Source: Mesotoga sp. BH458_6_3_2_1
GTDB lineage: Bacteria; Thermotogota; Thermotogae; Petrotogales; Kosmotogaceae
Assembly: GCF_003664995.1 (NCBI RefSeq)
Contig: NZ_JFHL01000025.1
Span: 1-64,000 of the forward strand
Reading direction: 5' to 3'
DNA length: 64,000 nt
A program made the position numbers and the translations under genes. Shown here in pieces: positions 12,288 to 63,215 of the stretch; position 1 is the stretch's first letter, and every line of letters starts with the position of its first letter. The notes below the pieces were generated by a model. It was given only the letters and a program-made list of their open reading frames with translations, made no database searches and was not told the DNA's origin.

Positions 12288-12300
12288 GAATGACAGTGTC

Positions 12301-26329: not shown

Positions 26330-26425
26330 GTTATTATGCTTATTATCTATTATTTAATCAGTGATCTTTCTTATGAATATCACTAGCAAGAGAAATCGAT
26401 AGCTTTGTTCCCTGGAGGCAAAGAA

Positions 26426-29287: not shown

Positions 29288-29302
29288 TAGGAGGAATTCA
29301 CC

Positions 29303-34513: not shown

Positions 34514-34514
34514 C

Positions 34515-38028: not shown

Positions 38029-38101
38029 ACCTAACAGCTCTGAGCAATTTCATCACACAGCTTGTCACGCATCAATCTGAGCACATTGGAGGAACGACCA
38101 C

Positions 38102-39709: not shown

Positions 39710-40752
39710 TGATTAACCTTAGCATAGATGAGTTCTTTTGGCCATTTGTGAGGCTTTCAACTGATGTAGCGAACATAGAGAAAAATCCCGAGAAACTCTA
39801 CATGTTGCTTGTGGATATGATAAGAAACAGTTGTCCAATGGAGAGAAGTAAATTGGCTATTCTTGCGGACGAAATCAGGAGACTTCACAAGGAATCAAAG
39901 GCTAGAAAAGATGTTAAGAAAGTGGCCTTTTACGAAAAGATTCTGGGATTTCTTGACGGACTGAGAAACACGGGGCTAGTCTATGACTCGCTGCACTTGA
40001 CATCACTCGACATGAATGAAATAAGCAACGACAGACACAACTCCTTGAAGTACTATCATGTTCAATGGGACATAACGAATCATGCAGATGTAGTCGGCAA
40101 CAAACGGCTTTGGACCCAAATCGAGCGTGCAGTTACAAATACAGACAAAATTGCCGTGGTGGACAGATACATCAATCTTGCGATTCTTGACAAAGCTTGG
40201 GATTCTAAGAAAAAGAATGCGAATTGCTTTGATACGCTTGAATGGCTGTCCAAGAATCTCAAAGTCGACAAAGCCTCAAATCCAAATGATCCCATGATAT
40301 TCATAATTGCTACTTTTCCTGGCACCTCAGAAGATAGAAATAAACTCCAAGAACTTCTGAGAGACTTGGACAAGAAAGTAGTATCTTTCAGAAATGATTT
40401 TGATTTCCCTGTCTCTATACTTATCCCAACAAGTACTTTCGAAAGCAAAGAGTACTTGCATCTTCACGAACGATTCCTGATAACTACGCAAGTGATAATG
40501 AAATCGGATGGAGGCTTCGGTCTTACAAATACATCCGAAACAACATTGCTAGTTTGGAACTCCCAAAGGGTAATCAACTTGTTAAGACATCTTGAGGAGC
40601 TCAATGATGGGCTTCACGGGAAGCGCACCTTGAAAGTAGCTGTGTTTTCTCCTGATGAGAAGAAATGGCATCTTGAAAGCAAATTGCCTGACTCATTCAA
40701 GGAACTAGTTTGTACAGCCAAAAACAGATGTTACTCGCGACAGAGTAGGTAA
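39709..40752 (+). CDS. Unknown protein, probable effector partner of the OLD-like ATPase
   Basis: The protein has 347 residues, starting on the ATG that overlaps the ATPase stop, with GAGGAG eight nt upstream. I do not recognise the family. The first about 110 residues are helical. Two motifs stand out, VVDRYINLAILD (about 150-161) and YLHLHERFLITTQ (about 249-261), followed by GGFGLTNTSE. A paired Asp-Arg and His-x-Arg-Phe of this kind is reminiscent of phospholipase-D-like folds with an HDRF-type motif, but this is a guess. Its tight coupling to an ATPase suggests a toxic or nucleolytic effector. Confidence 0.65.
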   Translation: MINLSIDEFFWPFVRLSTDVANIEKNPEKLYMLLVDMIRNSCPMERSKLAILADEIRRLHKESKARKDVKKVAFYEKILGFLDGLRNTGLVYDSLHLTSLDMNEISNDRHNSLKYYHVQWDITNHADVVGNKRLWTQIERAVTNTDKIAVVDRYINLAILDKAWDSKKKNANCFDTLEWLSKNLKVDKASNPNDPMIFIIATFPGTSEDRNKLQELLRDLDKKVVSFRNDFDFPVSILIPTSTFESKEYLHLHERFLITTQVIMKSDGGFGLTNTSETTLLVWNSQRVINLLRHLEELNDGLHGKRTLKVAVFSPDEKKWHLESKLPDSFKELVCTAKNRCYSRQSR

Positions 40753-47593: not shown

Positions 47594-47907
47594 CAATATG
47601 CCCCCCATTACGGAACTTGAGCAGGAAACGAGAAAGTCAACATGTTTAGTGAAGATTGCGTATATCTTACAATCAAATTATAGCACTCTGAGTTGTTCAG
47701 TCATAGTAGTTTGTCAAAACTGCGACAAGTAAGTTTTGGCTTGAACTTAATGGAACATTGAAAACCAGTTCGCCGAAAACAGACAGGGTCAGACTCCAAT
47801 TTTCACACTCTCTCCCATGCTGTAAGCAGGCGAAGCATGTTTCATTCTGAATTGCTTTCTTTGTTTTAATTTGGCATCTACATCAATTATTGTCAACTCG
47901 ACCTGAC
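47594..47907. other. Gap without a recognised feature
   Basis: This region holds the upstream sequence of the LRR gene and the downstream sequence of the X-protein gene, both on the minus strand. I see no gene or convincing terminator. Confidence 0.45.
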
Positions 47908-48666
47908 TCATTCCGATCTCTTTTCAACCCGTACCGACCTCTTCCAGATCCTGAAGTACTTTGCACCGATGTTGAATTTCTTGACAAACTCTGAGTATTC
48001 CGGCCAGATGGGCGCTCTGTAGAATTCGCTGCGGCCTATGCCTCCGTTTATGACATATTCGGGCAGAGGGTTGGTCCCGTAGAAGACCGACCGGGCCATT
48101 ATCTGCCATCTTCTGGTGAAGTCGGTCCAGTTACAGCCGAAGGCTTCCCCTGGCTGGATTATGGCCAGGATCTTAGGAGCCATCCTGTTCTCTAGATAAA
48201 GCGCCTGATAAGCCGCGGCGCCGTCCGCGCATATGAAAAGTAGCGAGAACCTGGACGGATTATGGTCTTCACCGTACTCTTCGGTTCTCTCGAATATGAA
48301 CCATTCGGCGAAGGGCTTCTCGAAGACATCCGAATAATGGTCGGGGCGGTGGTATTCGGCACGGTTTGGGGTGACCCTGATCCTCCAGCCGTTCGGCGCT
48401 AGCTGGCTCTCACTTATTGGAAGCTGGCGGATAACTCTGTATCCCCTGAATCCCTTGTTGGCGATCTCTTCGAGCAAGTTCTTCCTGCTTATGGAGTAGT
48501 CGACATATACGAAACTATAGACATTTCCCATAAAGTACTCGACCGGATGGCCGTCGTGGCCGCAGGCCGGGTAATACAGAGAGTCTTTCAACACGTCATG
48601 AATGTCGAATTCCGCGGGATTCTTTATCCATTCGGGCATTTCGGCCTTCGTCACTTCTTCAAACAT
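47908..48666 (-). CDS. Uncharacterised 'X' protein, short form
   Basis: The protein has 252 residues; the ATG at 48666 follows GGGAG and overlaps the stop of the methyltransferase-like gene by 8 nt. It is clearly homologous to the first about 270 residues of the gene at 50524-52188: MPEWIKNPAEFDIHDVLKDS, GNVYSFVYVDYSISRKNLL, GFRGYRVIRQ, FAEWFIFERTEEY and YQALYLENRMAPKILAI are shared almost word for word. I do not recognise the family. It has no signal peptide or enzyme motif. Tight coupling to an HsdM-like protein suggests a common complex. Confidence 0.75.
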   Translation of the reverse strand: MFEEVTKAEMPEWIKNPAEFDIHDVLKDSLYYPACGHDGHPVEYFMGNVYSFVYVDYSISRKNLLEEIANKGFRGYRVIRQLPISESQLAPNGWRIRVTPNRAEYHRPDHYSDVFEKPFAEWFIFERTEEYGEDHNPSRFSLLFICADGAAAYQALYLENRMAPKILAIIQPGEAFGCNWTDFTRRWQIMARSVFYGTNPLPEYVINGGIGRSEFYRAPIWPEYSEFVKKFNIGAKYFRIWKRSVRVEKRSE

Positions 48667-50524
48667 CGGAATCACTCCCTTCGTCTGTCGAAATTCTTCT
48701 GTCCTGCGATCCGCTCTGTTGAGGTCTGTCGGCCTTGATTGCCTCGACCGGAAGCCTCATGGCCTGAATTGCGTGCAAGGGCAGAAACTCCATGAAAAGG
48801 TGCTTTGTGGCTTCTCCAATGAGAAACTGGCCGTAGTCGCTCCTTAGAATGTTGAAGACCTTTACAGGATCGTATTCGCCGGAGACTCTAAAGACTATGT
48901 GATTGCCTGAGGGCAGTATCGACGCGTCTGAAGGGATGTCGGTTACCAGCCCTATGGTCGTTATGTCGTCTCTTCTGTTGAAGATGATGTCGTTCTTTCG
49001 TAGAAGGGATTTCTCAGCCGCTTTTGTGAGTTCTCCGGCATGCTCCTTTAGAGAGACCAGCTGAACGATGCCCTTCTCATCGACCTCCAAGCGAGGGTAC
49101 TTGTAGATCTTGCCTTTATACTCTTTTTCATCTGGCTCATGACCTTCGGGAAGGTCGGCATTCTTCGACTTCCGCAAGTATCTGTGTGATTCGAGGAACT
49201 CACCGATGGAATCCAGCTCGACGGTCGGGGAAGTCAGGAAGATTTCGTAATCATCGGGCAGCTGATCTTTCTTCACGGGGATTATCGAGTAGTCGCCAGG
49301 CACCAGGGAATAGCCGCTATTCTTTATCGTATCTATCGGGACCAGCGCGCATACTCCGCTTTCGCCTCTCCAGTCCCTGAAGTTTCTCATTACTGAACTA
49401 AGCAGAAGATTCTCCTCTCTCACTTCGAAGCAGAAAGGCTCTCTGCCGTCGCTCTTGGATACCGACATGAAGACCTGACCTTTCCTGCCGACGGGCTTCG
49501 CCTTGTTAAGGACCAGCAAACAGCAGTCGTCGTTTCCGCCGTGAACGGCTCCAAGGGGGAGTTGTATTACTGCTTCAAGCCAGTCGTTGTCTATTATTTC
49601 CTTATTTCCTTCTCTCAGCTCTCCTCTCGTAATCAGCGTCACGAGCTTGCCGTCATCCTTCATCGAGCGAATTCCATGGTTAATGAAGTCCCATTGGCTT
49701 ATGAGACCGGACGAGATATTTAGAATGTTTCGGAGGAAGAAATCAGTCTTCAACTCCTGCAATACCATGCGCTCGCCTGTTGGTGGCTCGATAATCACCC
49801 TGTCGTACTGTTCTTCCACATAGAGAGTCTCTTTCGTCGGTTTCACGAGGGAATCGCCCCTTACGAGCTTCGAGACGTCTATCCCGACAAGGGAAAGGAT
49901 AATCTTTGTGAGTCGCCATTTCCTAGGGTCGATTTCAAGTCCGGCGAAGGAAGTGTAGTCGAAGCCTTCTCTCCTGAAGATTGTGTAGAAGGCACGTCCG
50001 TAGCCGAAAGCGGGGTCGTAAACGGTCATTCCCGGTTCGATTTCGAGCAGATCGACCATCATATCAAGTATTTCCATCGGCACTATCATGTCAGAATAGA
50101 GAAGATTGGAGTCGATCGCAAATGAGAACATTCCCGTGTAGAAGGGGCCTATCAAAAGATCTATGTCCCTGATGGAGAGTCCGTCGATCATGCCGTCGGC
50201 GTAAGCGCAGGTTCTGTAGAAGAGGGGCGAGTCTTCTTTGAACGCCTCGCCCAATTCTCCTTTGAAGTCCATGAAAGCAAATTCCGGGTGCTCGACGATG
50301 AGCTCGGATATCGCGCTCTCAATGAGATCGGCCCGTTCCTTCCCGCTCTTTCCGAAGAACACGAACCTCCAGAAGACGCCACTGAATTGTACGTTCTGTG
50401 AGAGTTTCTTCAACAACAGGGAGCTCCAGAAGTACTCGATCGCCTTTTCCGAGAGCATCTTGTTTTGTTGACCGAGTTTGGAAAGAAGATACATGAAGTT
50501 CTGCACGCTGCCCGGAAAGTCCAT
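48659..50524 (-). CDS. HsdM-like methyltransferase fused to HsdS-like specificity region, EPPT at motif IV (copy 1)
   Basis: The protein has 621 residues. An N-terminal helical part (1-140) is followed by an N6-adenine methyltransferase fold: motif I YDPAFGYGRAFY (about 167-178), LEIDPRKWRL (about 197-206), then YDRVIIEPPTGER (about 239-251) where active enzymes have NPPY or NPPF. About 410-600 resembles a type I specificity half-subunit (LDSIGEFLESHRYLRKSK, LLRKNDIIFNRRDD, GNHIVFRVSG). Without the catalytic Asn it may bind DNA and SAM but not methylate. The start has GGGGGAG upstream; it overlaps the X-FGE stop by one base. Confidence 0.8.
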   Translation of the reverse strand: MDFPGSVQNFMYLLSKLGQQNKMLSEKAIEYFWSSLLLKKLSQNVQFSGVFWRFVFFGKSGKERADLIESAISELIVEHPEFAFMDFKGELGEAFKEDSPLFYRTCAYADGMIDGLSIRDIDLLIGPFYTGMFSFAIDSNLLYSDMIVPMEILDMMVDLLEIEPGMTVYDPAFGYGRAFYTIFRREGFDYTSFAGLEIDPRKWRLTKIILSLVGIDVSKLVRGDSLVKPTKETLYVEEQYDRVIIEPPTGERMVLQELKTDFFLRNILNISSGLISQWDFINHGIRSMKDDGKLVTLITRGELREGNKEIIDNDWLEAVIQLPLGAVHGGNDDCCLLVLNKAKPVGRKGQVFMSVSKSDGREPFCFEVREENLLLSSVMRNFRDWRGESGVCALVPIDTIKNSGYSLVPGDYSIIPVKKDQLPDDYEIFLTSPTVELDSIGEFLESHRYLRKSKNADLPEGHEPDEKEYKGKIYKYPRLEVDEKGIVQLVSLKEHAGELTKAAEKSLLRKNDIIFNRRDDITTIGLVTDIPSDASILPSGNHIVFRVSGEYDPVKVFNILRSDYGQFLIGEATKHLFMEFLPLHAIQAMRLPVEAIKADRPQQSGSQDRRISTDEGSDSDV

Positions 50525-52188
50525 CACTGCTCTCCCCCGTCGACCAGCACTGTCTTCGCTACGCGGAAGCCTATAGATGAGTTTGTGTAACGCTCCCCTG
50601 TGAAATCACGAGCCGAAATCGTTACTTCTTCACGGTCTTCACGTACGCTTCCGCCACGAAGGATTTTGAACACACCGGTTTCCCCATACGGGTTTATCTC
50701 CAGTCCCTCCGAGTATCTGTCGCTGTTGTCGCTGCACAGTTCCCAGACGTTGCCGGACATATCGTAAAGTCCGAGTTCGTTCGGGCTCTTCAACCCGACC
50801 TCTCGAGTTCTGTCGGATGAGTTTTCAATATACCAGGCGACCTCATCGACGTCGTTACTTCCGGCGAAGATATAATCTCTGCTCTTGTTACCTCCCCTGG
50901 CCGCGTATTCCCATTCTGCCTCGGTAGGCAACCTGTAGCCGGCAACTCTTCTTAAGTCGGTCGTGTGTGAGCCGTCGCAATCAAGCAGCTTTCCCAATTC
51001 ATCGTACGCCGGGGGCAGGCCTTCCTTTTCGCTCAACCAGTTGCAGTAGGAGATGGCGTCTAACCATTTCACATTCGTAACCGGTTTTGTGCCGTTCGGG
51101 GATTCTTCATCCACGGGTTCTTCTGCGCCCGTTTCCCTGCAGAACCTCGAGTACTCCTGACACGTGACGGTGTATCTGCCGATATAGAAATCATAGGTAA
51201 GCATCACATAGAGGGTATTACCTTCGGCAATATCTCGTATTCTCCCTACCTCGCTCATCTCGAACTCGCCGTTCTCGACAAAGACGAGATCGTTTTCAGA
51301 TGTTTCCTGCTGATGGTTCCCTCTCTGCTCGGAAACAGGTGGATTGAGCCTTGCGGGGTCTCCCGAGTACCTCCAGATAGTCACGCAGAAATTATACCCG
51401 TTGAAGTACTTCTTCACCCTGTTCGTGTATTCTGGCCAGGGTTCAGTAAAACCTGACATACCGACTATGTATTCAGGCAGGGGATTGTCGCGGTAGAATA
51501 TCGTCCTGGCGAGGATCTTCTCTCTGAGGGCGAATTCTGTCCAGTTCAAGCCGAAGCCGTATTGCGGGATTACGATGATTTTTGGAGCCATCCGATTTGC
51601 GAGATACAGGGCCTGGTAGGCCGCTACCGCCTCGGTGTTGAGAAAGAAGAAGGAGAAGCGTTTCGGATTGTGCGTCTCGTCGTACTCTTCGGTCCTCTCT
51701 AAGATGAACCATTCGGCGAAGGGCTCTTTCTGGATTCTACGCTCCGAGTTAGGGTTGCCATCTCGCTCATCCGGCAGGACCTTCTTCCACGAAGGATTCA
51801 GAATGTCTAGATATCCTGCGAAGTAACCTCTTTCGCGGTCTCCACGGAAGTGGTCGAACCGCCTCTCTCCTCGCGGATCGTCCTCGCGGTAATACCACGT
51901 AAGCGCGTCCCATCCACCCCGATGGAGTCTGTAGGGGTCTATCGATTCTTGTCGGATCACACTGTAACCTGTGAACCCGTACTCGGCCATATCCTGCAGC
52001 AGATCTTCTCGGCTTATGAAGTAGTCGATGTACACGAAGCTGTAAACGTTTCCCATGTAGTATTTGACAAAATGGCCGTGAAGGCCGCTGGCAAGGTAGC
52101 AGAGAGAGTCCTGCAGAATGTTCCTTATGTCGAACTCCCCTGGGTTTCTGATCCATTCCGGCATTTCCATTGACGGTAGTTCCGTCAT
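50524..52188 (-). CDS. 'X' domain fused to FGE-sulfatase/SUMF1-like domain
   Basis: The protein has about 554 residues. Residues 1-270 are the X domain shared with the short form. Residues about 295-550 are an FGE-sulfatase (C-type-lectin-like) domain: LVFVENGEFEMSEVG, WLDAISYCNWLSEKEGLPPAY, RLPTEAEWEYAARGG, LGLYDMSGNVWELCSD, LRGGSV and SIGFRVAK. The two cysteines that genuine formylglycine enzymes carry after RGGS are absent, so it is probably a binding domain. AAGGAGGA lies upstream; a TTG one codon before is also possible. It is followed directly by the methyltransferase-like gene. Confidence 0.8.
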   Translation of the reverse strand: MTELPSMEMPEWIRNPGEFDIRNILQDSLCYLASGLHGHFVKYYMGNVYSFVYIDYFISREDLLQDMAEYGFTGYSVIRQESIDPYRLHRGGWDALTWYYREDDPRGERRFDHFRGDRERGYFAGYLDILNPSWKKVLPDERDGNPNSERRIQKEPFAEWFILERTEEYDETHNPKRFSFFFLNTEAVAAYQALYLANRMAPKIIVIPQYGFGLNWTEFALREKILARTIFYRDNPLPEYIVGMSGFTEPWPEYTNRVKKYFNGYNFCVTIWRYSGDPARLNPPVSEQRGNHQQETSENDLVFVENGEFEMSEVGRIRDIAEGNTLYVMLTYDFYIGRYTVTCQEYSRFCRETGAEEPVDEESPNGTKPVTNVKWLDAISYCNWLSEKEGLPPAYDELGKLLDCDGSHTTDLRRVAGYRLPTEAEWEYAARGGNKSRDYIFAGSNDVDEVAWYIENSSDRTREVGLKSPNELGLYDMSGNVWELCSDNSDRYSEGLEINPYGETGVFKILRGGSVREDREEVTISARDFTGERYTNSSIGFRVAKTVLVDGGEQ

Positions 52189-52851
52189 CAAACTGACCAC
52201 TCCTCCTTATGATATTCCGCGATCGAAATCGCTACCCGTTAAACGGGTCTATTGGCTTATCTGACCTCACTACAACCGCACAATGGGATTGTCACTGGAT
52301 CGGAAACGGGAGAAAGTCTTATGAGTTGATATTCTGTGGAGCTGAGTGATAGTGCTGTTCGGACTGTCCGATGCTTAAAAAGCTACAAGAAAGATTGCAC
52401 CGGCTGGATACAACGGAGAACAGAAATGTCCGTGTGGGATTTGGATTCTGAAAGTCGACTTAAGGATACTATGGTGTCCGTGGTTTCTGGATTCGACATA
52501 AGCAATTGATTCGATAGGATTTGATCTACCTTGGAGACCTCAATTAAACGGTTTTTGAGTAGCGGAGTTAATTCACATCCTGTTGATTCGAATTGTCTAG
52601 AATAACTAAGTTAATTATACAGTAAAGTTCATGCCAGTAAGTTACGGCGTTATATCTATAATAATCATCTATTCATTACGAAACACTTACATAATTGAGG
52701 GATGAATCCGTTGACTCGTCTATCTCGCCCGAAAGAGACGGCCCTCGTAGATCTCGAACAGTCTCGCAATGCTAGAGCTGTCAAGTCCGGGGCCGATCGA
52801 TTCTTCCCCAAGTTTGGCGGGCGTGTTTACGGAAGAGTCTCTGTCAATTCG
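52189..52851. other. Gap between two methyltransferase-like units
   Basis: No intact gene is supported. The part 52720-52851 is an open continuation of the upstream methyltransferase-like frame after its TAA. The remainder (52189-52700) is A+T-rich and may contain a promoter for the X-FGE gene; I could not define one. Confidence 0.5.
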
Positions 52852-54651
52852 TTACTTACTCCCAAAAATAGCCGGTATCCTCATCTCTTCCAATGCGTCA
52901 AACGACATGCCACCAAAGAACATGTCTGCCTTCGCCTTATGGATCAAATGTTTTCCGTAGTCACTACGAAGGACTCTCAAGACTTCAAGAGCATCATACT
53001 CTTCCCTTACTCTCAGTACTACGTGATCTCTCGAAAGAATCACCGTCTCATCGTCAAGGATATCTCCGAAAATACCTACGCTCTCTTCTCCCGACCAGAC
53101 AGAGATAACGATGTCAGACTTTCTAAGGATCCCGGATTCTGTGACCTCCAACGGTGTCCTGAGTTGACTCGCCGAGCGATATAAATCTATGACGCCTTCC
53201 GAATCGGTCGACACTCTCTCCAGGATATAGATTCTGCCCGATTTCATCTTGCCATGAAGCGGTGTCTCCGAGTTCAGGCCGTGCTCAGGGCCGTAACCGA
53301 CTCTATCTGGATTCCTGCCAATAATGAACTCCCCAATCTCTTTAAGCTCTATCATTGGGGCGTTGATGAGTTCTTCAAAACTCACTTTCTTTCTTCTGGG
53401 CATACCCGCAGATATAGCATAGTCTCGCGGTCTCAGGGTGTACCCGTTTGCAGTTATAGTCTGAATCGAGACAATGCCGCTTCGATTCGGTTCCGAGAGC
53501 CATCCCCTGTACTGCTCTGTGAATCTCGATGGCCAATCGATCGGGTTCCGTATGTCGAACCAGTCGATCTGCCTTTCCGATTCGGGAACCACAAGCAGCA
53601 CTTTTTCCTTCCTTTGAGTGGGTTTGGATTTGTTTATTACGAGAATGCTTGTCTCTCTTCGAAGGAAGTTTCCCCTACCGATGGGAAGCTCTATTACGGC
53701 TTCCAGCCAGTCGTTGTCGACTATCTCACAGATCGGGTTTTCAAGTGCTCTTGTCTCTATAAGGCTTACCATTTTCCCCGTTGGCTTAAGACATTCGATT
53801 CCGTGTTTAATGTAGCTCCACTGGCTTCCGGGAACCTTAGATACCTCCAGAATGCCTCTTGTCAGATACCCCGTCTTGATTCTGTAAGAGAGAAGCTTCT
53901 CGCTGGATGGCGGCTCGAGTATCACCCTGTCGTACTGAGAATTCGACAGGAGCGAATAGTCTTCCGGCCTGGTTAGCGGGTCTCCCTGCTTCATATTCAC
54001 GGCGTTCAATCCGAGTAGAATCAAAGCTATCTTTCCGATACTGTGTCTGTATGGGTCTGCCTCCAGGCCGGCGTATTCGAGGTTTTCGAGGGTATTGTTC
54101 TTGAAGATACCGTAAAGGGTCCTGCCGAAGCCCGTTGATGGATCGTATATGCTCATTCCATGCCGGACATCTAGCAGTTCTACCATTGAATCGATCACCT
54201 GCGGGGGAGCATCCGAACCTCCTTCAAGCAAATCGGATTCCATGGATACCGAGAGCAGAGCCTCGTACAGAGAGCCGCTCTTGTCGAAGATATCCTTCAT
54301 CGCCAATTGATCGACGAACGAGTCGACGTAAGCGCATGTCTTTTGAAGTAGCTCGGGACCTTCGCTGAAGATCCACAAATACTTGCCTTCATAATCGATG
54401 AATCTGAACCGGGGATACCTGCTGATTATCTCCTTCAACGCCTTCTCTATCAGCACCGCCCTTTCAATTCCACTCTTGCCGAAAAGAGCGAACTCTTCGA
54501 AGACATCGAAGTAGTTCTCTCGAAACGAGTTCTTTCTGAGCAACATGTTCGTCCAGAAGTACTCTATGGCCCTCTCCGAAAGGCTTCGGTCTTCTTCTCG
54601 CAATTTGAATAGGAGATAGATAAAGTTCTCTGCAAAACTTACTAGATCCAT
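52852..54651 (-). CDS. HsdM-like methyltransferase fused to HsdS-like specificity region, EPPS at motif IV (copy 2)
   Basis: The protein has 599 residues and is a full-length paralogue of the 48659-50524 product (shared ...LSERAIEYFW, FGKSGIERA..LIE, DNDWLEAVIELP, LRKSDIVISVWSGEE). Motif I is YDPSTGFGRTLY (about 167-178) and motif IV is YDRVILEPPSSEK (about 236-248), again Glu for Asn. The C-terminal target-recognition-like part (about 430-590) is diverged from copy 1, as expected if each reads a different DNA sequence. AAGGGGG lies seven nt before the ATG. The TAA is followed by 43 further open codons in frame. Confidence 0.8.
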   Translation of the reverse strand: MDLVSFAENFIYLLFKLREEDRSLSERAIEYFWTNMLLRKNSFRENYFDVFEEFALFGKSGIERAVLIEKALKEIISRYPRFRFIDYEGKYLWIFSEGPELLQKTCAYVDSFVDQLAMKDIFDKSGSLYEALLSVSMESDLLEGGSDAPPQVIDSMVELLDVRHGMSIYDPSTGFGRTLYGIFKNNTLENLEYAGLEADPYRHSIGKIALILLGLNAVNMKQGDPLTRPEDYSLLSNSQYDRVILEPPSSEKLLSYRIKTGYLTRGILEVSKVPGSQWSYIKHGIECLKPTGKMVSLIETRALENPICEIVDNDWLEAVIELPIGRGNFLRRETSILVINKSKPTQRKEKVLLVVPESERQIDWFDIRNPIDWPSRFTEQYRGWLSEPNRSGIVSIQTITANGYTLRPRDYAISAGMPRRKKVSFEELINAPMIELKEIGEFIIGRNPDRVGYGPEHGLNSETPLHGKMKSGRIYILERVSTDSEGVIDLYRSASQLRTPLEVTESGILRKSDIVISVWSGEESVGIFGDILDDETVILSRDHVVLRVREEYDALEVLRVLRSDYGKHLIHKAKADMFFGGMSFDALEEMRIPAIFGSK

Positions 54652-55075
54652 TCCAAGCCCCCTTTTTCATTTTTAGTTCAATCAGGTTGTCTTGCTCTGA
54701 CTGTTTTAACCTGCGTTCCATGGAATCTCCCTTAACATGTTTCCCCGTTCTTCACCTCCTGAAATCTCACTGTTCATATCTTCGCAGACTTAGCCATAGG
54801 CGACAGCCACCGGAGCAGCCGATTGCTCGCGCTTGACCGATAGATCGATGAAAAAAGCATTTTCACTATATGTGAATAGAGAGTTTCGCCGAGAATCAAT
54901 CTCGGAACCTCACGGAGGATAACCTTCTCTGATGACTCTGGAAATGCAATACGATTCAACTACCGCAAGCCTTCCTTCGCACAAGAATATATTCGGGTGA
55001 GTGACGACAATGAATAAAGTTGCTGGACGTAACGGCAAGACTATTAAATTAATTATATCAGGAGTGAGATACGCA
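54652..55075. other. Divergent upstream region
   Basis: It separates the leftward X/methyltransferase-like genes from the rightward addBA genes. A minus-strand frame starting at 54721 has a good AAGGGAG site and runs into the methyltransferase-like gene in another frame; it could be a short leader peptide. No other gene is supported. Confidence 0.45.
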
Positions 55076-55103
55076 TTGTTTACGTTATCAAAAACTGTAC
55101 AAT
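55076..55103 (+). promoter_or_regulatory. Promoter of the addBA-FGE operon
   Basis: TTGTTT (55076-55081), 16 nt, then TACAAT (55098-55103). The -10 box overlaps the first in-frame ATG (55102), which argues that translation begins further downstream, at 55141. Confidence 0.5.
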
Positions 55104-55140
55104 GGTAGTAAAGTTAAGATCTTTATTTAGGGGGCAGTTC

Positions 55141-58100
55141 TTGAAAGGTGTTCTTGTCTGTGGAAAAGAAGGCAGAAGAAGAAGCGATTGCTTGCTGCAG
55201 AAGATCCAGGAAAGCTACAGCGGAGATCCCTTCTCCTTTCTCTTCGTAGGACCATCTTCTTTCTTTCTGCGAACGGTGAAAGATTCCTTGGTGAAGAGGG
55301 GGCTTTCGATCGCCGCCGGACAGTTCAGTACTGAGAGATCTCTTGCCATGAAAATGGTTAGGGAGATGTTCCCGGATCTCAGAGCCGTTCCCGAAAGAGG
55401 CGAAAGAATAGAGATCGCGAAGGCCTTCGAAAAGGTCAAGAAGTACTATCCTTCAGAAAAGGCCACGAGCTACTTTCATGAAGCCATCGTAGTCTTGAAG
55501 GAGAATCTCGGAAATTTCGAGACCGCCTTCGGGAGAGAAGACGTCGTTCCCGAGGTTCTGAAGAAAGTCTACGCAGAGCTTCAAGAACACTTTAAAGAAG
55601 GCAAGCTTTTCGATTCATACGATGCCATGAGGCTGGCGGCAGTGCAAACCGATCTCGAAAGAGGCGCTTTCGGAAAGACTCTGTTCATAGACGGTTTCTA
55701 CGATTTCAGTCCGGCAACCAGGGCTTTTCTGAAGAATATTATGCGTTGTTTCGACGAGGTTTATCTCTCATGTCCTGGAGATAGTGATAGAAAAAATCTG
55801 TTCAGGGAGAGTCAAACCATTTCAGCTCTCTTCGAGGGCATCGGCTTCGACAAGATAAATGTTGATCGGAGCGAAATCGGCCCACTTACAAAAGTGAATG
55901 GGATTCTCTTTTCGGATCGGGAAGAGTTCAATGACACCGGGTGTGAAAACGCTGAGATTGTCGAGTGCAACGATCTGTACGGAGAGGTCGACTTCGTCGC
56001 CAGGGAAGTAAAGAGAGCGATAGCGAAGGGAGAACTGAAGCCGGAGGAGATAGAGATTGTAATACCGAATCAGGATTACTGGAGGGTATTGAAGAAATCG
56101 CTGAACGACTTCGGGATCCCTGTAGTGAGCAAGAATTCGGTTTCCTTGCTCGAATCGAAGAGCATCCAGACCCTTCTACTGCCGCTTGAAGTGGTATCCG
56201 ATTCTTTCGAGCCTTGGGGAATCCTCGAAATGATAGATGCCGGCTACGGTGGCGGTACGATAGATTCCGTTCTTTTCGAGAAAGTAATGGCATCGGCCGG
56301 TCTGCAGTTCGAAATGTCTGGAGCCACGACAGAGGATGCAAAGAAGGCATGGCTGGAGAAGCTAGAGACTTACAAACGTTTTCTCGGTGCAAAATCTGAA
56401 AGCCTAGCCTCCAAAGACGATCTTGACGAGGACTTCTCTGCTCTGTCCCAAATCCAGGAGATAAAAGAAGAGATACGGTTCATAGAGTATGCTGCCAAAC
56501 CCGCTGTCAAGAGGGTCTTTTCACTTCTGAATAGCATTGATAGAAATGTGTCGATGCCTCTTTCGAAATATGAAGCCTTCTTCCGAGTCTGTGAAGAGAA
56601 ACTTGGACTAAAAGAGCTTACGGGAAACAAGGAAAAGACATTGGTATCTGAAAACATTGCCTGCGTCGAACAGTTCATTCAAAGAGCCGTTCCTTCACAC
56701 GCCGGGATTCTTGAAGCTATGGAAATCACCGAGTACGATCCAGAAAAATACCACAAGTCTCTCATGAAGTATCTGGAAGGCGAGGATCTGCGGGGCGAGG
56801 CCAATATGGGGGGTGGAGTCGAAGTCCTCTCACTGATCGACTCTCGTTACACTTCGAAGAAGGTCAAGTACTTCATGGGATTCAACGAGGGAAATTACCC
56901 CGTTTTGTCTCTCAATCCACTCTATGCGGGCGCGCAGTACTCCGAGCCCAGAGCCAAGGACATTCTGGGCATTCAGGAGAACAGGCAGAAACTGGGCCTT
57001 TTTCTGGCGATGAGCGGTGCACAGGAGAGGCTCTGCATAACTTTCTCGAACTCCACGGTCGATGGGAACGTGCTGATGAAGTCTCCTTACGAAGGATCGG
57101 TTCTTGGGGCATTCGGCAAATCTGAGCCCAAACCCCACGGCCGCGTAGAAGGCAAGCGCACCGATCTCGTGTCCGTGCCGTCGGAGGCTATGAGCCCGGC
57201 GGATTACAGGCTTTCGATAGCCAGTCTGTTCAAGGAGAACCCCGAGGAATGGGAGAAACATAAAAACTCGGAAACAGTCTCCACTCTGGAGAAGAACCTG
57301 AGCTCGATCACAAACGACTTTTCCTTCAAGGTCCCCGGCGTGAAAGCAGCCGAGGAGCTGACGGAGAAATGTATTAGCTTCTCTACGGTCGGGACCTACT
57401 GCAAGTGCAAATTCAAGTATTTCTTGAACTATGTGCTTGGGTTGCAGCCTGTTCCGGAGGAGATACTAGAGCTTTCTCCCATGGATGCGGGAAGCGTTTT
57501 TCATGCCGTTCTCAGCGATCACCTCGGAAGTGGCGTCGCGCTAGATGAGAGCCTCGAGAAGAATCTCCGGAGGTTTTCTGGCGGCATAAACAAGGCGCTC
57601 TTCAAAAGGCGCTACGATCAGATGTTGAAGATACTTACAGAATATATGGATTACGATCAATCGGAGGAGACCAGTGCCGGAAGGACTGTATTCCGTACGG
57701 AGCTCTCCTTTGGGTTCGATACATCCGATTACGGCCCGCTGAAGCTGACCCCCGAGATTTGTGTACACGGAATCGTAGACAGGATCGACACTTGTGAAGA
57801 TGGTACGCTATTTGTCATCGACTACAAGAGCGGCAAAAGTCTGGGATCAGCGATGGCCGAACAGCTTATACTCTATTCGATGGCAGTCGAAAACGCCTTC
57901 TCGGAAGAGAACAAAGTGGTGAGCGGGGGAGAATTCAGGCTCATAAAGGGTAAGAATAAAGCCAACAATTTTTCGATCGATTACTCTTCGGGTGAAAGAA
58001 AGTGGAAGTTCGACGGCAAACTGAAATTCAAGATTTGCGAGACTGCCGAAAAGGGAAAGATTTCGGACGATGAGTTTGTCAGAGCCGTTGAAGAGATAAT

Positions 58101-58233
58101 CAAAAGCGTCCAGTCGGGCGATTTCTCCATCGAAACCTGGAAAGGAAAAGCATCTAATTGCTACAGGTGCGAAAACGAAGGAATCTTCAACATTCTGAAG
58201 TGGAGACAAAAAGGCGGGCCAAGCGATGAATAA
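55141..58233 (+). CDS. addB: AddB-like helicase/nuclease subunit
   Basis: The protein has 1030 residues. The TTG at 55141 is preferred because AGGGGG lies six nt upstream, while the ATG at 55102 falls inside the promoter. The N-terminal part follows AddB but its Walker A loop is degenerate (CGKEGRRRSD). The C-terminal nuclease has SFSTVGTYCKCKFKYFLNY, AGSVFHAVL, GIVDRID (about 876) and FVIDYKSGK (about 891-899), with CYRC near the end. The iron-sulfur staple shows fewer C-terminal cysteines than in Bacillus AddB. It overlaps the AddA-like gene by 8 nt. The pair should resect double-strand ends for recombination or degrade foreign DNA. Confidence 0.85.
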   Translation: MKGVLVCGKEGRRRSDCLLQKIQESYSGDPFSFLFVGPSSFFLRTVKDSLVKRGLSIAAGQFSTERSLAMKMVREMFPDLRAVPERGERIEIAKAFEKVKKYYPSEKATSYFHEAIVVLKENLGNFETAFGREDVVPEVLKKVYAELQEHFKEGKLFDSYDAMRLAAVQTDLERGAFGKTLFIDGFYDFSPATRAFLKNIMRCFDEVYLSCPGDSDRKNLFRESQTISALFEGIGFDKINVDRSEIGPLTKVNGILFSDREEFNDTGCENAEIVECNDLYGEVDFVAREVKRAIAKGELKPEEIEIVIPNQDYWRVLKKSLNDFGIPVVSKNSVSLLESKSIQTLLLPLEVVSDSFEPWGILEMIDAGYGGGTIDSVLFEKVMASAGLQFEMSGATTEDAKKAWLEKLETYKRFLGAKSESLASKDDLDEDFSALSQIQEIKEEIRFIEYAAKPAVKRVFSLLNSIDRNVSMPLSKYEAFFRVCEEKLGLKELTGNKEKTLVSENIACVEQFIQRAVPSHAGILEAMEITEYDPEKYHKSLMKYLEGEDLRGEANMGGGVEVLSLIDSRYTSKKVKYFMGFNEGNYPVLSLNPLYAGAQYSEPRAKDILGIQENRQKLGLFLAMSGAQERLCITFSNSTVDGNVLMKSPYEGSVLGAFGKSEPKPHGRVEGKRTDLVSVPSEAMSPADYRLSIASLFKENPEEWEKHKNSETVSTLEKNLSSITNDFSFKVPGVKAAEELTEKCISFSTVGTYCKCKFKYFLNYVLGLQPVPEEILELSPMDAGSVFHAVLSDHLGSGVALDESLEKNLRRFSGGINKALFKRRYDQMLKILTEYMDYDQSEETSAGRTVFRTELSFGFDTSDYGPLKLTPEICVHGIVDRIDTCEDGTLFVIDYKSGKSLGSAMAEQLILYSMAVENAFSEENKVVSGGEFRLIKGKNKANNFSIDYSSGERKWKFDGKLKFKICETAEKGKISDDEFVRAVEEIIKSVQSGDFSIETWKGKASNCYRCENEGIFNILKWRQKGGPSDE

Positions 58234-61123
58234 AAACACATTCATCTCCGCTTCTGCAGGCACCGGCAAGACATACAGGCTGGTGGAGGAATACATGGGA
58301 ATTCTTCGCTCCGACGAAAAGCTGGGCATCGAAAACATCCTGGCGATTACCTTCACTGAAAAGGCCGCTGCGGAGATGAAGGAGAGAGTGGCGAAGGCGA
58401 TACTGGAACAAATAGATAAAGCTGCCAGCGAAGGCGAGCGGAAAAGATGGAAAGAAATCAATTCAAGGGTCATGCACGCCTGGATCTCGACTATCCACTC
58501 CTTCTGCGCGAGAATACTCAGGGAGTCTATTCTGAATACGAGTTCCGATCTGGATCCTGGATTTTCTATTATTACGGGAACGAAGAAGATACTCGAACTT
58601 CAGGCCCTTGGAAGGTTCTTCTCGCGCAATCTCGATTCTCTGGATGAAATGATAGACATCTACGGCCTGGACAAGACTTACAAGATTCTTGAGGACTGCC
58701 TCTCCAAACAGAGACACAACATGTATCTCTACAGCCCCATTGAAAACAAAGATAAGGAAGAGAACGCCGAGAAGATCTCCAGAGCGACAGCTGTCTGCCA
58801 CGAAGCATTCAAGAAGCTAAACAAGGAATACGAGGAACTGACATTGAAGAAGGCTCAGCTCGACTTCGAGCAGTTGCTGGAAGAGACAAGGAAGATGCTG
58901 AACGACAATCCCAAGATAGCAGATGAATATTCCAAGAGGTTCAAGTACATTCTAGTAGACGAGTTCCAGGATACGGACGAGCTTCAGGCGGAGATTATCA
59001 GTAAGTTGACGGCTTCGGGAAATGTGAAGGTGCTTTTTGTAGGGGACGACAAGCAGTCGATTTACCGGTTCAGGGGAGCGAATGTCGAGATCTTCAATCT
59101 GACAAGAAGGAAATTCGAAGAAAGCGACGACGCCACGGACACTCTCGGAAAATCATACAGGTCGCACCCGGAGATTGTGAAGTTCCACAACATATTCTTC
59201 AAGAAAGTGATGAGCAACCCAACGCTTGAGGCATTTGCGTCGAGGTACGGCAAGAATGTGGAGGCCCTTGAGCCTCACGGTGACAGGAGAGAAAAGCGGT
59301 TAAGAATACTTGAAAGCAAAGATAAAGACCACGCAGGACCCATCGCTGCTCATATACGTTCGCTTCTGGATGAGGAGCTCGATTTCAGAGAGGGAAAATC
59401 TGTTGTAACGCGCAAGATACGGCCAGGAGATATAGCCATACTCCTCAGGAAGTTCAAGAACGTTGAAAAGTATCAGGAGGCGCTTGAAGCAAATCGGATT
59501 CCTTACTATACGGTGGGCTCTAGAAAGTTCTTCCAGCGGCCCGAGATAGCCGGACTTATAGCATTCGTAAGTTTTCTCGGCAATCCCGCAGACGACAGGG
59601 CCTTCCTGTCGTTCTTCCTTTCTCCAGCATGGGGAGGCACGCTTCAGGATGCGGCGAGACTCAAGGAGAAATACAGTCACTTCTATGATTGCATTATGAG
59701 GAGCGAAGACAAATCCTTCGTCGATCTTCGCACGATCATAACAAGGTATTCGCGCCTTGCGAGACTACTTAAGCCGGGAGAGATTCTCGACTCCTTCGTC
59801 GGAGAGACGGACTACCTTCCGAAGATGACGCTCCTTGCAATGCCCGAGCAGTGTCTGGCCAACGTAATTAAATTCCTTCAAATATCCAAGGAGCTCGACT
59901 CTCTCGGGATAAGTTTGAGGGAGTTTTCGAAGAACATTGAATTGTATTCCGAAGAGGCAGACGAGGGTGAAGCGGCCCTGGAGAACGAGAAGAGCGACAG
60001 CGTGAAGATAATGACAGTCCACCAGGCAAAGGGGCTGGAATTTCCCGTTGTGATCGTTGCCGAGATGACGGAGAATCCGAGGAAAGAGACCCCTTCAATG
60101 CTTTTCGACACAGCTTCGAAAGGCTTCACTCTTTACAGCAAGGAACTGACGACGGACGACCTAGACATGGTGTATAGAGCAGATCTGAGAAAACAGGTCG
60201 AAGAAGAGAAGAGAACCCTCTATGTTGCGCTTACAAGACCCAGGGAAATACTTGTAATGAATGTCGACAAAGAGGCCATGGAGAAGGATCTGAAAAAGAA
60301 GAGAGACGATACGGCTATCGGCTGGCTTCCTCAGATAGTGATTGGCCTTTACAACGATGAAACCGGGCAGCTGGAAGATGAGCTCGAGGACCTGGCTACT
60401 TTTGTGAAGGCCCCGGCTATCATTGAAGGCGCGGAAATTCGACGTGAAGAAACCCCGTGGGAAGAGCCCGATAACGGTTACATGAAGCGCTTCGATCATC
60501 TCAAATTCAGGAGAATAGTCTCACCCACTACGCTCGACTTCGATGACAAACAGACAGAGATTCTGGAACTTGACAGTATCGAAAGAACTTCACGTTCCTC
60601 AACGGCCGAAGGGCTGTACGTTCACAGGATCTTCGAGCAGCTCGGAAACCCCGCTGGAAGACCAAAGGGAAAGAGACTGAATGAGATCCTGAGCGATCCT
60701 GAACTTCTAAGAGAGTCGGCGGCCCCTGAAAGGGCAAAGGAGATCCTGGAGCAACTGAAGGAGCTTGGCCATCACGAGATAATTCGCGAAATCGAGGACT
60801 CAGAGGTTTGCAGAAGCGAAGTGCGCTTTGAGAGAGCCTTCGACAAGTTCATACTGGCGGGCGTAATCGACAAACTCTACAAGACATCTGAAGGCTGGAA
60901 GATCGTTGACTTCAAGCTGGCCGAAAAGAGAGCTGACATGCTTGAGAGATACAAGTTCCAGATGGAGTTCTACCTGTATCTTCTGAAGAATTCTCTCGAC
61001 CCTGTTTCGGCGACTATTCTGTATCTCAAAGACGGGGATACGGAGACCGTGACTCTCCAAAACACTCGCGACTTCGAAATCAGACTCGAAAACCATGTGA
61101 CCCATCAAACAGAAGAAAACTGA
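58226..61123 (+). CDS. addA: AddA-like helicase-nuclease
   Basis: The protein has 965 residues, shorter than Bacillus AddA (about 1230). UvrD-type motifs: ISASAGTGKT (7-16), AITFTEKAAAEMK, VDEFQDTDELQ (about 243-253), GDDKQSIYRFRGAN (about 273-286) and TVHQAKGLEFPVVIV (about 597-611). The C-terminal RecB-type nuclease has GVIDKL (about 878) and KIVDFKLAEK (about 892-901), then YKFQMEFYLYLL. All catalytic residues look intact. The start ATGAATAA overlaps the AddB stop. It is the partner of the AddB-like protein and lies upstream of the FGE-like gene. Confidence 0.88.
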   Translation: MNKNTFISASAGTGKTYRLVEEYMGILRSDEKLGIENILAITFTEKAAAEMKERVAKAILEQIDKAASEGERKRWKEINSRVMHAWISTIHSFCARILRESILNTSSDLDPGFSIITGTKKILELQALGRFFSRNLDSLDEMIDIYGLDKTYKILEDCLSKQRHNMYLYSPIENKDKEENAEKISRATAVCHEAFKKLNKEYEELTLKKAQLDFEQLLEETRKMLNDNPKIADEYSKRFKYILVDEFQDTDELQAEIISKLTASGNVKVLFVGDDKQSIYRFRGANVEIFNLTRRKFEESDDATDTLGKSYRSHPEIVKFHNIFFKKVMSNPTLEAFASRYGKNVEALEPHGDRREKRLRILESKDKDHAGPIAAHIRSLLDEELDFREGKSVVTRKIRPGDIAILLRKFKNVEKYQEALEANRIPYYTVGSRKFFQRPEIAGLIAFVSFLGNPADDRAFLSFFLSPAWGGTLQDAARLKEKYSHFYDCIMRSEDKSFVDLRTIITRYSRLARLLKPGEILDSFVGETDYLPKMTLLAMPEQCLANVIKFLQISKELDSLGISLREFSKNIELYSEEADEGEAALENEKSDSVKIMTVHQAKGLEFPVVIVAEMTENPRKETPSMLFDTASKGFTLYSKELTTDDLDMVYRADLRKQVEEEKRTLYVALTRPREILVMNVDKEAMEKDLKKKRDDTAIGWLPQIVIGLYNDETGQLEDELEDLATFVKAPAIIEGAEIRREETPWEEPDNGYMKRFDHLKFRRIVSPTTLDFDDKQTEILELDSIERTSRSSTAEGLYVHRIFEQLGNPAGRPKGKRLNEILSDPELLRESAAPERAKEILEQLKELGHHEIIREIEDSEVCRSEVRFERAFDKFILAGVIDKLYKTSEGWKIVDFKLAEKRADMLERYKFQMEFYLYLLKNSLDPVSATILYLKDGDTETVTLQNTRDFEIRLENHVTHQTEEN

Positions 61124-61220
61124 AAACAGTCTCTGATTGGCTTTGCTGTATGGAACGGACTTGATGACGGAGGGCTTTATTGCCTGCGCAGTGAGTCTCC
61201 GTCTAGAAGGAGTGAGCTCT

Positions 61221-63215
61221 TTGAACGAAAGAGTTAGAGAACAACTCACAGAGCTGGTGAAGACGCACGGTGTAGATATACTCGATCAACCGGATAAGAT
61301 CGAGACCTTGCTCAAAACGTCCTTTGGGGAATCTGAAACCGAGATAATGGCTATCGTAACGGCTCTGAGAGAGGGTTTGCTCAGAGAGTTACTGAGAAGC
61401 GAAGACTCCTCTGCACGGACTGCTGCAATTGAAGGCTTTTCCCGACGACTTAGAAAAAACCGCTCCATGGATGAAGAGGCCGCGAGCTGGGCTATAGAAA
61501 GCATAGCGTTAGCGCTTGGGAAGTTAACGCCGGCCGAAACTGAATCTTCCGGGATGAAGACAACAAATGGAGATGAACTGGTCTACATCGAGGGCGGTAG
61601 TTTTGCCATGGGTGACACCTGGGGAGACGGAGCCGACGCTGAAAGACCGGCGCACAGAGTGAATATCACGTACGATCTCTACGTGGGTAAGTATCCAGTG
61701 ACCTTCGAGGAATACGACAGGTTTTGCATGGAGACAGGAGCCACGGAACCGGAAGATGAGGGACTGGGAAGGGGAAGAAGACCGGTAATCAACGTGAACT
61801 GGTTCCAGGCGACCTGGTACTGCAACTGGTTAAGCGAGAAGGAGGGCTTACCTCCGGCCTACTATGAAGACGGGAGTCTTCTGGACGAAAACGGGAAGAA
61901 GACGAATGACATAGCGAGAGTACGGGGATACAGGTTGTTGAGCGAGGCCGAATGGGAGTATGCGGCAAGGGGCGGAAGAGAGAGCCGAGGTCACAAATAT
62001 TCCGGTTCCGATGACCCGAGCCTTGTTGCCTGGTTCGATGAAAAACCCAGTGAAGCTCCGACCGATTTGAGTAAAGCAAAGAGGCTCGTAGCCCACGAAG
62101 TTGGGATGAAGATGCCAAATGAACTTGGCCTGTACGACATGAGCGGCAGTGTTTGGGAGTGGTGTTCAGATCGATTCGATGATTATGCCGGTTCGGAACA
62201 GACAAATCCACATTCAATAAGCGAAGGCGGCCGGGTCATTCGGGGCGGCTGCTGGTTCAAGCCCGCCAATTTAGCAAGGATTGCTCACCGAGAAGAACTT
62301 TCACCGATGGAAATCCACAATGGCGTGGGCTTTCGAATCTGCAGAGCGGCAGATCGAAAAACAAAAGCAGTTTCATTTTCAGAGAGAAATGAAAGACAGG
62401 CCGATGAGTCCTCATTTATGCCAGCCGGAGAGGTTCCCGACTTGGTGCTCGTTGAGAGAGGAAGCTTCAAAATGGGAGACACATGGGGCGACGGATTGAT
62501 AGACGAAAGACCGGTTCGCGAAGTAAGAATTACGTATGACTTTTACATTGGCAAGCACGAAGTCAGGTTCTCAGAATTCGACGTCTTCTGTGAAGCCACG
62601 GGAAGAATCCCTCCTTCCGACGAGGACTGGGGGAGGGGAGATTTGCCCGTCATAAACGTAACTTGGTGGGACGCCGTGGAGTTCTGCAACTGGCTTAGCG
62701 AGAGAGAAGGTCTCCCAAAGGCCTATGACGATGACGGACGCCTCCTGGATGCCACGGGAAAGGCTACGGACAAATTGGAAAGAGTACCCGGATTTAGGCT
62801 GCCTACGGAAGCCGAATGGGAATATGCGGCCAGGGGAGGTAACAAGAGCGAAGGTCATAAGTATGCAGGAAGCGACGACGTGGACGAAGTCGCCTGGTAC
62901 TGCGAAAATTCGGGAATCAAGACGCACGAAGTGGGAAAGAAGGCGCCGAATGAACTGGGAATCCACGATATGTCCGGCAACGTCTGGGAGTGGTGCTCCG
63001 ACTGGTACGAGGAAGACTACTACAGGTACAGCCCAAATGTGAACCCGTACAATACCGAAGGCGACTACGAACGGGTCATGCGGGGCGGCAGCGCGGGACT
63101 TAATGAGACTTTCGCCCGGGTAACACATCGCGATTATCTGGAGCCCTCTTCAGCGGGCAACGCTGTCGGCTTTCGCATATGCAGAACAGCCAAAAACCAA
63201 TCCGAACTTCCTTGA
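61221..63215 (+). CDS. Helical domain plus two FGE-sulfatase-like domains
   Basis: The protein has 664 residues. The TTG at 61221 has AAGGAG eight nt upstream; the frame extends to 61137 without a ribosome site. Residues about 1-100 form a helical domain (LLRELLRSED..., RLRKNRSMDEEAASWAIESIALALG) of a kind often seen before FGE, WD40 or kinase domains in signalling or conflict proteins. Residues about 118-395 and 425-660 are tandem FGE-like domains (VYIEGGSFAMGDTWGDG and LVLVERGSFKMGDTWGDG; RLLSEAEWEYAARGG and RLPTEAEWEYAARGG; SGSVWEWCSD and SGNVWEWCSD). The paired cysteines of catalytic FGE are absent. It closes the addBA operon, 97 nt downstream. Confidence 0.83.
   Translation: MNERVREQLTELVKTHGVDILDQPDKIETLLKTSFGESETEIMAIVTALREGLLRELLRSEDSSARTAAIEGFSRRLRKNRSMDEEAASWAIESIALALGKLTPAETESSGMKTTNGDELVYIEGGSFAMGDTWGDGADAERPAHRVNITYDLYVGKYPVTFEEYDRFCMETGATEPEDEGLGRGRRPVINVNWFQATWYCNWLSEKEGLPPAYYEDGSLLDENGKKTNDIARVRGYRLLSEAEWEYAARGGRESRGHKYSGSDDPSLVAWFDEKPSEAPTDLSKAKRLVAHEVGMKMPNELGLYDMSGSVWEWCSDRFDDYAGSEQTNPHSISEGGRVIRGGCWFKPANLARIAHREELSPMEIHNGVGFRICRAADRKTKAVSFSERNERQADESSFMPAGEVPDLVLVERGSFKMGDTWGDGLIDERPVREVRITYDFYIGKHEVRFSEFDVFCEATGRIPPSDEDWGRGDLPVINVTWWDAVEFCNWLSEREGLPKAYDDDGRLLDATGKATDKLERVPGFRLPTEAEWEYAARGGNKSEGHKYAGSDDVDEVAWYCENSGIKTHEVGKKAPNELGIHDMSGNVWEWCSDWYEEDYYRYSPNVNPYNTEGDYERVMRGGSAGLNETFARVTHRDYLEPSSAGNAVGFRICRTAKNQSELP

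Follow-up and report, generated by a model that had tools for sequence, protein, structure and literature searches.

Gene organization of the locus

The stretch analyzed here (the window) comprises 64,000 nucleotides (nt) of Mesotoga sp. BH458_6_3_2_1 (positions 1 to 64,000 of contig NZ_JFHL01000025.1, assembly GCF_003664995.1), whose 3.23 Mb genome has its nearest relatives, among the genomes searched, within the same genus. On the minus strand, four genes in the order MS1, XF, MS2, and X encode two fusions of HsdM-like and HsdS-like (M-S) domains and two proteins of an uncharacterized family, X. In both fusions, the catalytic asparagine of motif IV is replaced by glutamate, and they seem to function as DNA readers without methylation, possibly together with a second, accessory AddAB helicase-nuclease encoded next to them. 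The features of the locus are the following:

47908..48675, minus strand: X, 255 amino acids (aa), family uncharacterized, with 53% identity to the N-terminal domain of XF
48659..50527, minus strand: MS2, eroded HsdM-like domain (149-414) plus HsdS-like half-subunit (PF02384, E=5e-26)
49781..49789, minus strand: motif IV codons of MS2, E247-P248-P249, EPPT replacing NPP[FY], from alignment to HsdM
50524..52200, minus strand: X-FGE (XF), X domain (~1-290) plus FGE-sulfatase domain (302-549)
52201..52851, minus strand: intergenic stretch between MS1 and XF, containing a TGTATAAT-like box plus a conserved leader of ~340 nt 5' of XF
52852..54651, minus strand: MS1, second eroded HsdM-HsdS-like fusion, EPPS (PF02384, E=3.6e-19)
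53908..53916, minus strand: motif IV codons of MS1, E246-P247-P248, from alignment and motif scan
54652..55101, no strand: divergent intergenic region between MS1 and AddBx, 79% identical to that of G028
55102..58233, plus strand: AddBx (accessory AddB), PD-(D/E)XK nuclease domain, ADDB_N-like (PF12705, E=1.7e-24)
58226..61123, plus strand: AddAx (accessory AddA), UvrD helicase (PF00580, E=2.4e-60) and PD-(D/E)XK nuclease (PF12705, E=7.3e-12)
61137..63215, plus strand: FGE2, double FGE-sulfatase protein, encoded third in the operon after AddBx and AddAx (PF03781, E=2e-100, two stretches)

The genome of the window is referred to as G000 and the contig of the cluster as C25. Related clusters lie in G028 (locus L041; the solo relative MS3 of the same genome is at L039), on L045, a contig common to G026 and the deposited metagenome-assembled genome Thermotogales bacterium Thermo_02, on L046, and on the far-diverged contig L047. 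The original prediction had the four genes coupled by overlaps of 1-8 nt. Overlaps indeed join XF to MS2 (4 nt) and MS2 to X (17 nt, or 8 nt from the ATG of X), but MS1 is not coupled in this way, since 651 nt lie between its end and the start of XF. XF-MS2-X is the tightest operon and was found in all of the cluster loci seen (5/5). The stretch between MS1 and XF is 90% identical in G028, and its 3' half is ~68% identical in L045 and L047, both without MS1 upstream; the leader of XF is kept across four divergent loci. No unusual RNA folding was found in this leader and no Rfam family matched it; it is possibly a regulatory leader or a gene remnant.

Erosion of the catalytic motifs in MS1 and MS2

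MS1 and MS2, predicted to be paralogous fusions, are both full-length N6_Mtase proteins (PF02384) and are 37% identical over their full length. In the PDB, the profile of the MS family matches PacII M1/M2 and EcoR124II HsdM at positions 124-427 and the half-HsdS chain 8vsr at positions 496-607, and the top folds retrieved by Foldseek with a predicted model of MS2 (predicted local distance difference test, pLDDT, of 70) include PacII, EcoR124I, and other HsdM subunits. The HsdM and HsdS-type folds of type I restriction-modification (RM) are present in both proteins, the catalytic NPP[FY] in neither. The predicted change of Asn to Glu is borne out by alignment, since EPPT of MS2 (E247) and EPPS of MS1 (E246) fall on motif IV both of PacII HsdM, where 'ViiePPsge' stands opposite 'FANPPYS' in the profile alignment, and of the host's own HsdM (ANPPF). 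A normal motif does not exist elsewhere either, [NDS]PP[YFW] being absent from the entire sequences of MS1 and MS2, in which the sole other PP is the APPQ of MS1.

The fusions had also been described as otherwise intact and as altered in motif I. Both are full length, but the aromatic residue of motif IV and the GEF[YF]TP stretch before motif I (the GEFYTP loop) are also missing from both; motif I is changed only mildly, as its Asp and second Gly are retained, and GLE of motif II and GD of motif III are present. In PacII structures, the AGEF/AAEF and NPP[FY] motifs make up the catalytic pocket (PMC9613975), and NPP[FY] is intact in the host HsdM and in 12 HsdMs encoded beside related fusions. 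Moreover, human METTL14, which carries EPPL instead of DPPW and has likewise lost the aromatic residue, is experimentally inactive and acts as a stable dimer partner (PMC5023411); it differs in being an RNA enzyme that works with the active METTL3, whereas here both members of the pair have EPP. The predicted loss of methylation ability in MS1 and MS2 is thus well supported. Binding of S-adenosylmethionine (SAM) may survive without catalysis, since the Asp and second Gly of motif I, GLE, and GD remain. As originally proposed, the best reading of both proteins seems to be that of DNA readers without methylation.

Conservation and purifying selection in Mesotoga

The MS, XF, and X genes are full length, without internal stops, in G000, G026 (L045), G028 (L041), and L047, and L046 carries XF-MS2-X. 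MS1 has an orthologue in G028 and a sister type, MS1', in L045 and L047; X has orthologues in G026, G028, and L047, and the architecture of XF is repeated in L041, L045, L046, and L047. The proteins of L047 are 62% (MS2), 85% (X), and 70% (XF) identical to those of the window, and motif IV reads EPPA in its MS2 and EPPS in its MS1'. The solo MS3 of G028 is 27-28% identical to MS2, with CEPPM at motif IV. Because MS1, MS1', MS2, and MS3 group together in one clade (support 98/99) and all have EPP, the glutamate is a conserved trait of this Mesotoga clade and, judging from the sequences compared, is specific to it at motif IV. MS3 (L039 8654-10570) lies between apparent cas genes of type I-B and an AbiE-like pair, both identified by eye, together with an uncharacterized gene of 178 aa.

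The ratio of nonsynonymous to synonymous substitution rates (dN/dS) is 0.17-0.28 for MS2, 0.29 for MS1, 0.18-0.30 for X, and 0.30-0.37 for XF, within a range of 0.13-0.37 over the window genes in which comparisons with dS >1 are included. The view that the shared changes are kept by selection agrees with these values: purifying selection on the MS genes is well supported and decay is very unlikely, because the glutamate is retained in divergent relatives and dN/dS is low. The C-terminal part of MS1 has a dN/dS of 0.47 versus 0.20 for the N-terminal part, a difference that may reflect specificity-like evolution, and in XF the FGE half (0.44-0.51) likewise exceeds the X half (0.26-0.29).

The accessory AddAB operon

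The gene set originally proposed consisted of the M-S proteins with X and X-FGE. These genes are indeed linked, but the strongest effector candidate lies beyond them, in the operon AddBx-AddAx-FGE2 (55102-63215), which directly neighbors MS1 and diverges from it. AddAx has the Walker A motif GTGKT and VDEFQDT (dN/dS 0.13-0.19) and AddBx retains the nuclease motif (dN/dS 0.22-0.29), so that the pair has the composition of AddAB, with helicase and PD-(D/E)XK motifs. In these domains and catalytic motifs it resembles AddAB/RecBCD; it differs in being a divergent second copy besides the housekeeping one, in sharing an operon with FGE2, and in its linkage to the MS and X genes. The housekeeping AddB, located on contig C29, is 30% identical to AddBx and has counterparts throughout most of the genus (such a gene in 9/10 members), and the AddBx clade, which comprises the window, G028, and L047 only, stands apart from it with a support of 100/100.

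AddBx was found solely in the cluster-bearing G000, G028, and L047 and adjoins the cluster in each, that is, in 3/3 of the loci whose contigs extend far enough. In the window and G028, AddBx is divergent from MS1, while in L047 XF-MS2-X-MS1' faces FGE2-AddAx-AddBx; because the order in L047 differs and yet AddBx still adjoins the cluster, the linkage outlasts a rearrangement. A counterpart of FGE2 lies directly after AddAx in L047 and at the contig end in L045. The functional link that these arrangements suggest between AddAB and the cluster is moderately supported, and the system is probably larger than the MS and X set, taking in AddBx-AddAx-FGE2.

The X family and FGE domains

X and the N-terminal domain of XF are paralogues, and the FGE domain predicted in XF is confirmed by PF03781 (E=2.6e-43). 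X has no match in Pfam, NCBIfam, PADLOC, or the PDB, and neither profile searches nor a low-confidence model revealed a recognizable catalytic motif or fold. Profile matches to X occur in 7 of 395 Bacteroidota genomes; X was absent from the plasmids, phages, and viral contigs searched, nothing of note appeared in 398 Bacillota genomes, and a Thermotogota match in G101 (E=0.007) was taken as chance. In the Bacteroidota genome G661 (L210), the gene order is AddB, AddA, X, a pentapeptide-repeat protein, and a DruE-like helicase, followed by DpdE-like and DrmMI-like genes, with 40 nt from AddA to the start of X and an overlap of 4 nt between X and the next gene. As X directly follows AddB-AddA there, it seems to be tied to AddAB in a distant phylum. 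By appearance, L210 (1677-14553), as well as L214, is a composite defense locus. Another Bacteroidota X gene (L207 8196-8939) lies ~2 kb from AAA_5 McrB-like and, by eye, McrC-like genes (10836-14335), and G029 contains an X remnant of 97 aa (L042 9545-9838) among methylase and, by eye, DUF262-like genes.

The G000 genome holds 17 FGE matches, including a TIR-FGE fusion ~25 kb from the cluster (L176 15961-17307; G000:C25:79961-81307), near which a TIR protein is also encoded (L176 15100-15534; G000:C25:79100-79534). FGE-type domains have been proposed as sensors of conflict systems (PMC10907252) and, since XF, TIR-FGE, and FGE2 have the domain in common, it seems to behave as a sensor or adaptor module. 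A role of X and X-FGE as effectors or sensors is possible. The proposed FGE/C-type-lectin sensors likewise stand next to effector domains but differ in being diversified by diversity-generating retroelements (DGRs). A DGR explanation is unsupported here, as the intact RVT_1 match of the genome lies on another contig and is of group II intron type by appearance, and no DGR was found by a template-repeat search that was not exhaustive.

A broader family of catalytically dead M-S fusions

Searches of plasmids and genomes turned up fusions that match MS1 and MS2 in size and domain order and have a differently eroded motif IV, namely HPPL in Paenibacillus, VPPF in Lactococcus (pLLUC310B), FPPI in L. 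amylovorus (p2), NFPF in Salimicrobium (pSJ25), and IPPF in Sulfuricurvum (pSULKU03). From 398 Bacillota genomes searched, 12 further fusion loci were taken for inspection; NPP[FYW] occurs in none of the 12 fusions, although L161 has DPPM and its inactivity is less certain. At eight of these 12 loci, a canonical hsdM-hsdS-hsdR operon, with hsdS and hsdR assigned by eye and from their position, follows closely downstream of the fusion; NPP[FY] is intact in the HsdMs encoded next to the fusions. Fusions directly 5' of an intact hsdM, in apparent full type I operons, are those of L152-L155, L157, L159-L161, and L116-L119, and a small uncharacterized gene (~90-210 aa) is often located between or before these fusions and hsdM. 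In Gemmiger (L062, 9599-12195), a dead M-S fusion and a TIR_2 gene share 4 nt, and in L154 a SEFIR/TIR gene is immediately upstream of the fusion.

MS1 and MS2 share the features of this family, with N6_Mtase and half-HsdS domains and erosion of motif IV and GEFYTP. Judged from these sequences, loss of the catalytic asparagine is typical of a broad family of M-S fusions and not peculiar to MS1 and MS2; monophyly of the whole family with the Mesotoga clade was not supported by the tree, which has long branches. Unlike the Mesotoga cluster, the plasmid and Bacillota fusions upstream of hsdM-S-R are single copies beside a complete type I system, and X, FGE, and AddAB were not seen beside them. 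The MS target-recognition domains show no preferential similarity to the adjacent HsdS, and the idea that they copy it was not supported. No relatives turned up when viral sequences were scanned with the MS alignment.

Genomic surroundings

A defense island on the plus strand (26405-40752), assigned to none of the named systems, encodes a UvrD/PD-(D/E)XK helicase-nuclease, an N6/N4 methylase, a ResIII/TnsA-like protein, a D12 methylase, a HerA-like ATPase, an AAA_15/DUF3696 protein, and two proteins without a Pfam match. Just past the window lies a gene for a 1610-aa DUF4011/AAA helicase/MTES_1575 nuclease protein (L176 2895-7727; G000:C25:66895-71727). Leucine-rich-repeat lipoprotein-like genes adjoin the cluster in the window (45635-47608) and in L045 (380-1969), with 45.8% identity over 120 aa. 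The place beside the cluster that other genes take in the window is occupied in G028 (L041 827-5805) by genes for a DPPYNTGK-containing methylase and for a protein of 1009 aa, which by eye form a type III-like RM pair.

Comparison with named systems

The original prediction knew of no restriction, BREX, DISARM, or Dnd system with this gene set, and none was found to match in PADLOC, NCBIfam, or the open-access literature searched; the homologue and neighborhood searches yielded relatives in Mesotoga loci and Bacillota, and X in Bacteroidota, but no named system. PADLOC lists no PglX/PglZ/BrxC, DrmA/DrmB, or Dnd family for MS1, MS2, X, XF, or AddBx, and no BREX, DISARM, or Dnd family is among the best 25 of the 55 PADLOC matches of AddAx. 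For MADS, the MAD2 model NF047738 gave 17.6 bits, with its curated cut-off at 720, the PADLOC mad2 match is limited to the methyltransferase region, and none of the other mad models matches a cluster protein.

Type I RM, and PacII M1M2S in particular, is similar in the HsdM fold, the half-HsdS, the two different M-type subunits (PacII), and a helicase-nuclease nearby. However, M and S are fused here, the catalytic Asn, the aromatic residue, and the GEF loop are gone, X and FGE proteins are added, and the nearby motor is of the AddAB type and not HsdR: no HsdR-like gene was recognized among the open reading frames adjoining the cluster in the window, G028, and L047, where the AddA/AddB pair is found. 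The literature comes closest, by analogy, with DndH of DndFGH, an inactive methylase with target-recognition domains that has been proposed to be dominant negative (PMC10853773) and offers a parallel to readers without methylation. Both are eroded DNA methylases with target-recognition domains, and DndH is a defense protein bearing a nuclease domain, but it is a single multidomain protein with HerA/FtsK, whereas here there are two type I-derived proteins and separate AddAB, X, and FGE. Nothing on point was found in the open-access literature on dead HsdM-HsdS fusions or on AddAB as a defense effector, which is weak evidence of novelty. By composition, the gene set appears to be categorically new, as far as the open-access literature goes, and its function is putative.

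Proposed mechanism and alternative explanations

Building on what is observed directly, namely the lost catalytic residues, the purifying selection, the linkage of the genes, and the intact catalytic motifs of AddAB, a seven-gene module (MS1, XF, MS2, X, and AddBx-AddAx-FGE2) can be proposed in which dead readers would work with an AddAB nuclease, a mechanism held tentatively and with slightly less than even confidence. The ancestors of MS1 and MS2 would be type I methyltransferase-specificity proteins, with methylation lost since, and MS1 and MS2 would most likely pair through their HsdM-like N-terminal domains, as a putative heterodimer whose two different target-recognition domains would bind a bipartite DNA site and leave it unmodified. 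Binding, or the state of the site, could recruit or license AddBx-AddAx, which would unwind and degrade DNA, standing in for the HsdR of type I restriction. X would link the readers to AddAB, the FGE domains could act as sensor or adaptor, and the module would have an anti-phage role. Host DNA could be spared if the site is absent from it, if SAM or the methylation state acts as a switch, or if a phage signal is needed through FGE. A defense role is probable from the context, with the 26-41 kb island, TIR-FGE ~25 kb away, and the overlap between a dead M-S relative and a TIR gene. More doubtful is the wider proposal that the dead M-S pair passes targets via X to a dedicated second AddAB, in a methylation-free, restriction-like defense with FGE sensors, as one branch of a dead-reader class with AddAB, TIR, or type I RM effectors.

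Several points weigh against a module of dead readers and AddAB. G026 has the cluster, yet AddBx was not found there, which could mean that AddAB is dispensable, although the L045 contig stops inside the FGE2 counterpart. AddAB and the cluster are transcribed divergently, and their proximity could reflect an island hotspot. In Bacteroidota, AddAB adjoins X at only one of the six loci with gene-length matches and not in the other five, and it is not near MS3 in G028 or the Bacillota relatives. The AlphaFold2 model of X reached a pLDDT of 42 from 6 sequences, too low for a fold search, and the proposed model has no explanation for self/non-self discrimination.

MS1 and MS2 could instead bind sites to block methylation or cleavage, or regulate neighboring defense genes, with no effector and AddAB a mere neighbor. 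This is unlikely but deserves weight, as the position of dead fusions directly upstream of hsdM-S-R in 8/12 Bacillota loci fits a regulator or site protector and DndH has been proposed to be dominant negative (PMC10853773); however, the MS target-recognition domains do not resemble the adjacent HsdS preferentially, no type I operon adjoins the cluster here, and X and AddAB are also linked in a different phylum. Somewhat less probable still, X and X-FGE could themselves serve as effectors or sensors that the MS readers trigger, with AddAB independent or auxiliary. This role would suit the position of X in XF, which matches that of TIR in the TIR-FGE fusion of this genome, the overlap between a TIR gene and a dead M-S relative, and the XF-MS2-X operon, the tightest one, present in 5/5 cluster loci; the lack of a recognizable catalytic motif or fold in X and its operon with AddB-AddA in Bacteroidota argue against it.

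It is improbable that MS1 and MS2 act in trans with the intact host HsdM and HsdR, as non-catalytic specificity subunits giving the type I enzyme further specificities. An intact host HsdM with ANPPF (L175 6331-7899) is followed by a large open reading frame that is, by eye, consistent with hsdR, but each MS protein already has an M domain, the canonical operon lies on contig C29 and not on that of the cluster, the target-recognition domains are only marginally like the host HsdS, and there is no active methylase partner within the locus. Methylation through an unusual motif IV is very improbable: the SAM side is partly retained (Asp and second Gly of motif I, GLE, GD), but the Asn, the base-stacking aromatic residue, and the GEF loop are all missing, these elements lie within or close to the catalytic pocket in PacII structures (PMC9613975), and METTL14 with EPPL is inactive (PMC5023411). 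That MS1 and MS2 are decaying RM remnants, as the vanished catalytic motifs and the 97-aa X remnant of G029 (L042) could suggest, is barely credible against full-length genes without internal stops in G000, G026, G028, and L047 and a dN/dS of 0.13-0.37 for the window genes, some at dS >1.

Implications

AddAB is known from recombination and repair. If the proposed module of dead readers and AddAB is correct, AddAB would have been recruited as a dedicated defense effector, type I methylase-specificity proteins would have been reused as pure DNA readers, and self would be distinguished from foreign DNA without methylation by the system itself. Moreover, a larger class of proteins annotated as 'N-6 DNA methylase' probably does not methylate, which would bear on the annotation of methylomes and on counts of defense systems.

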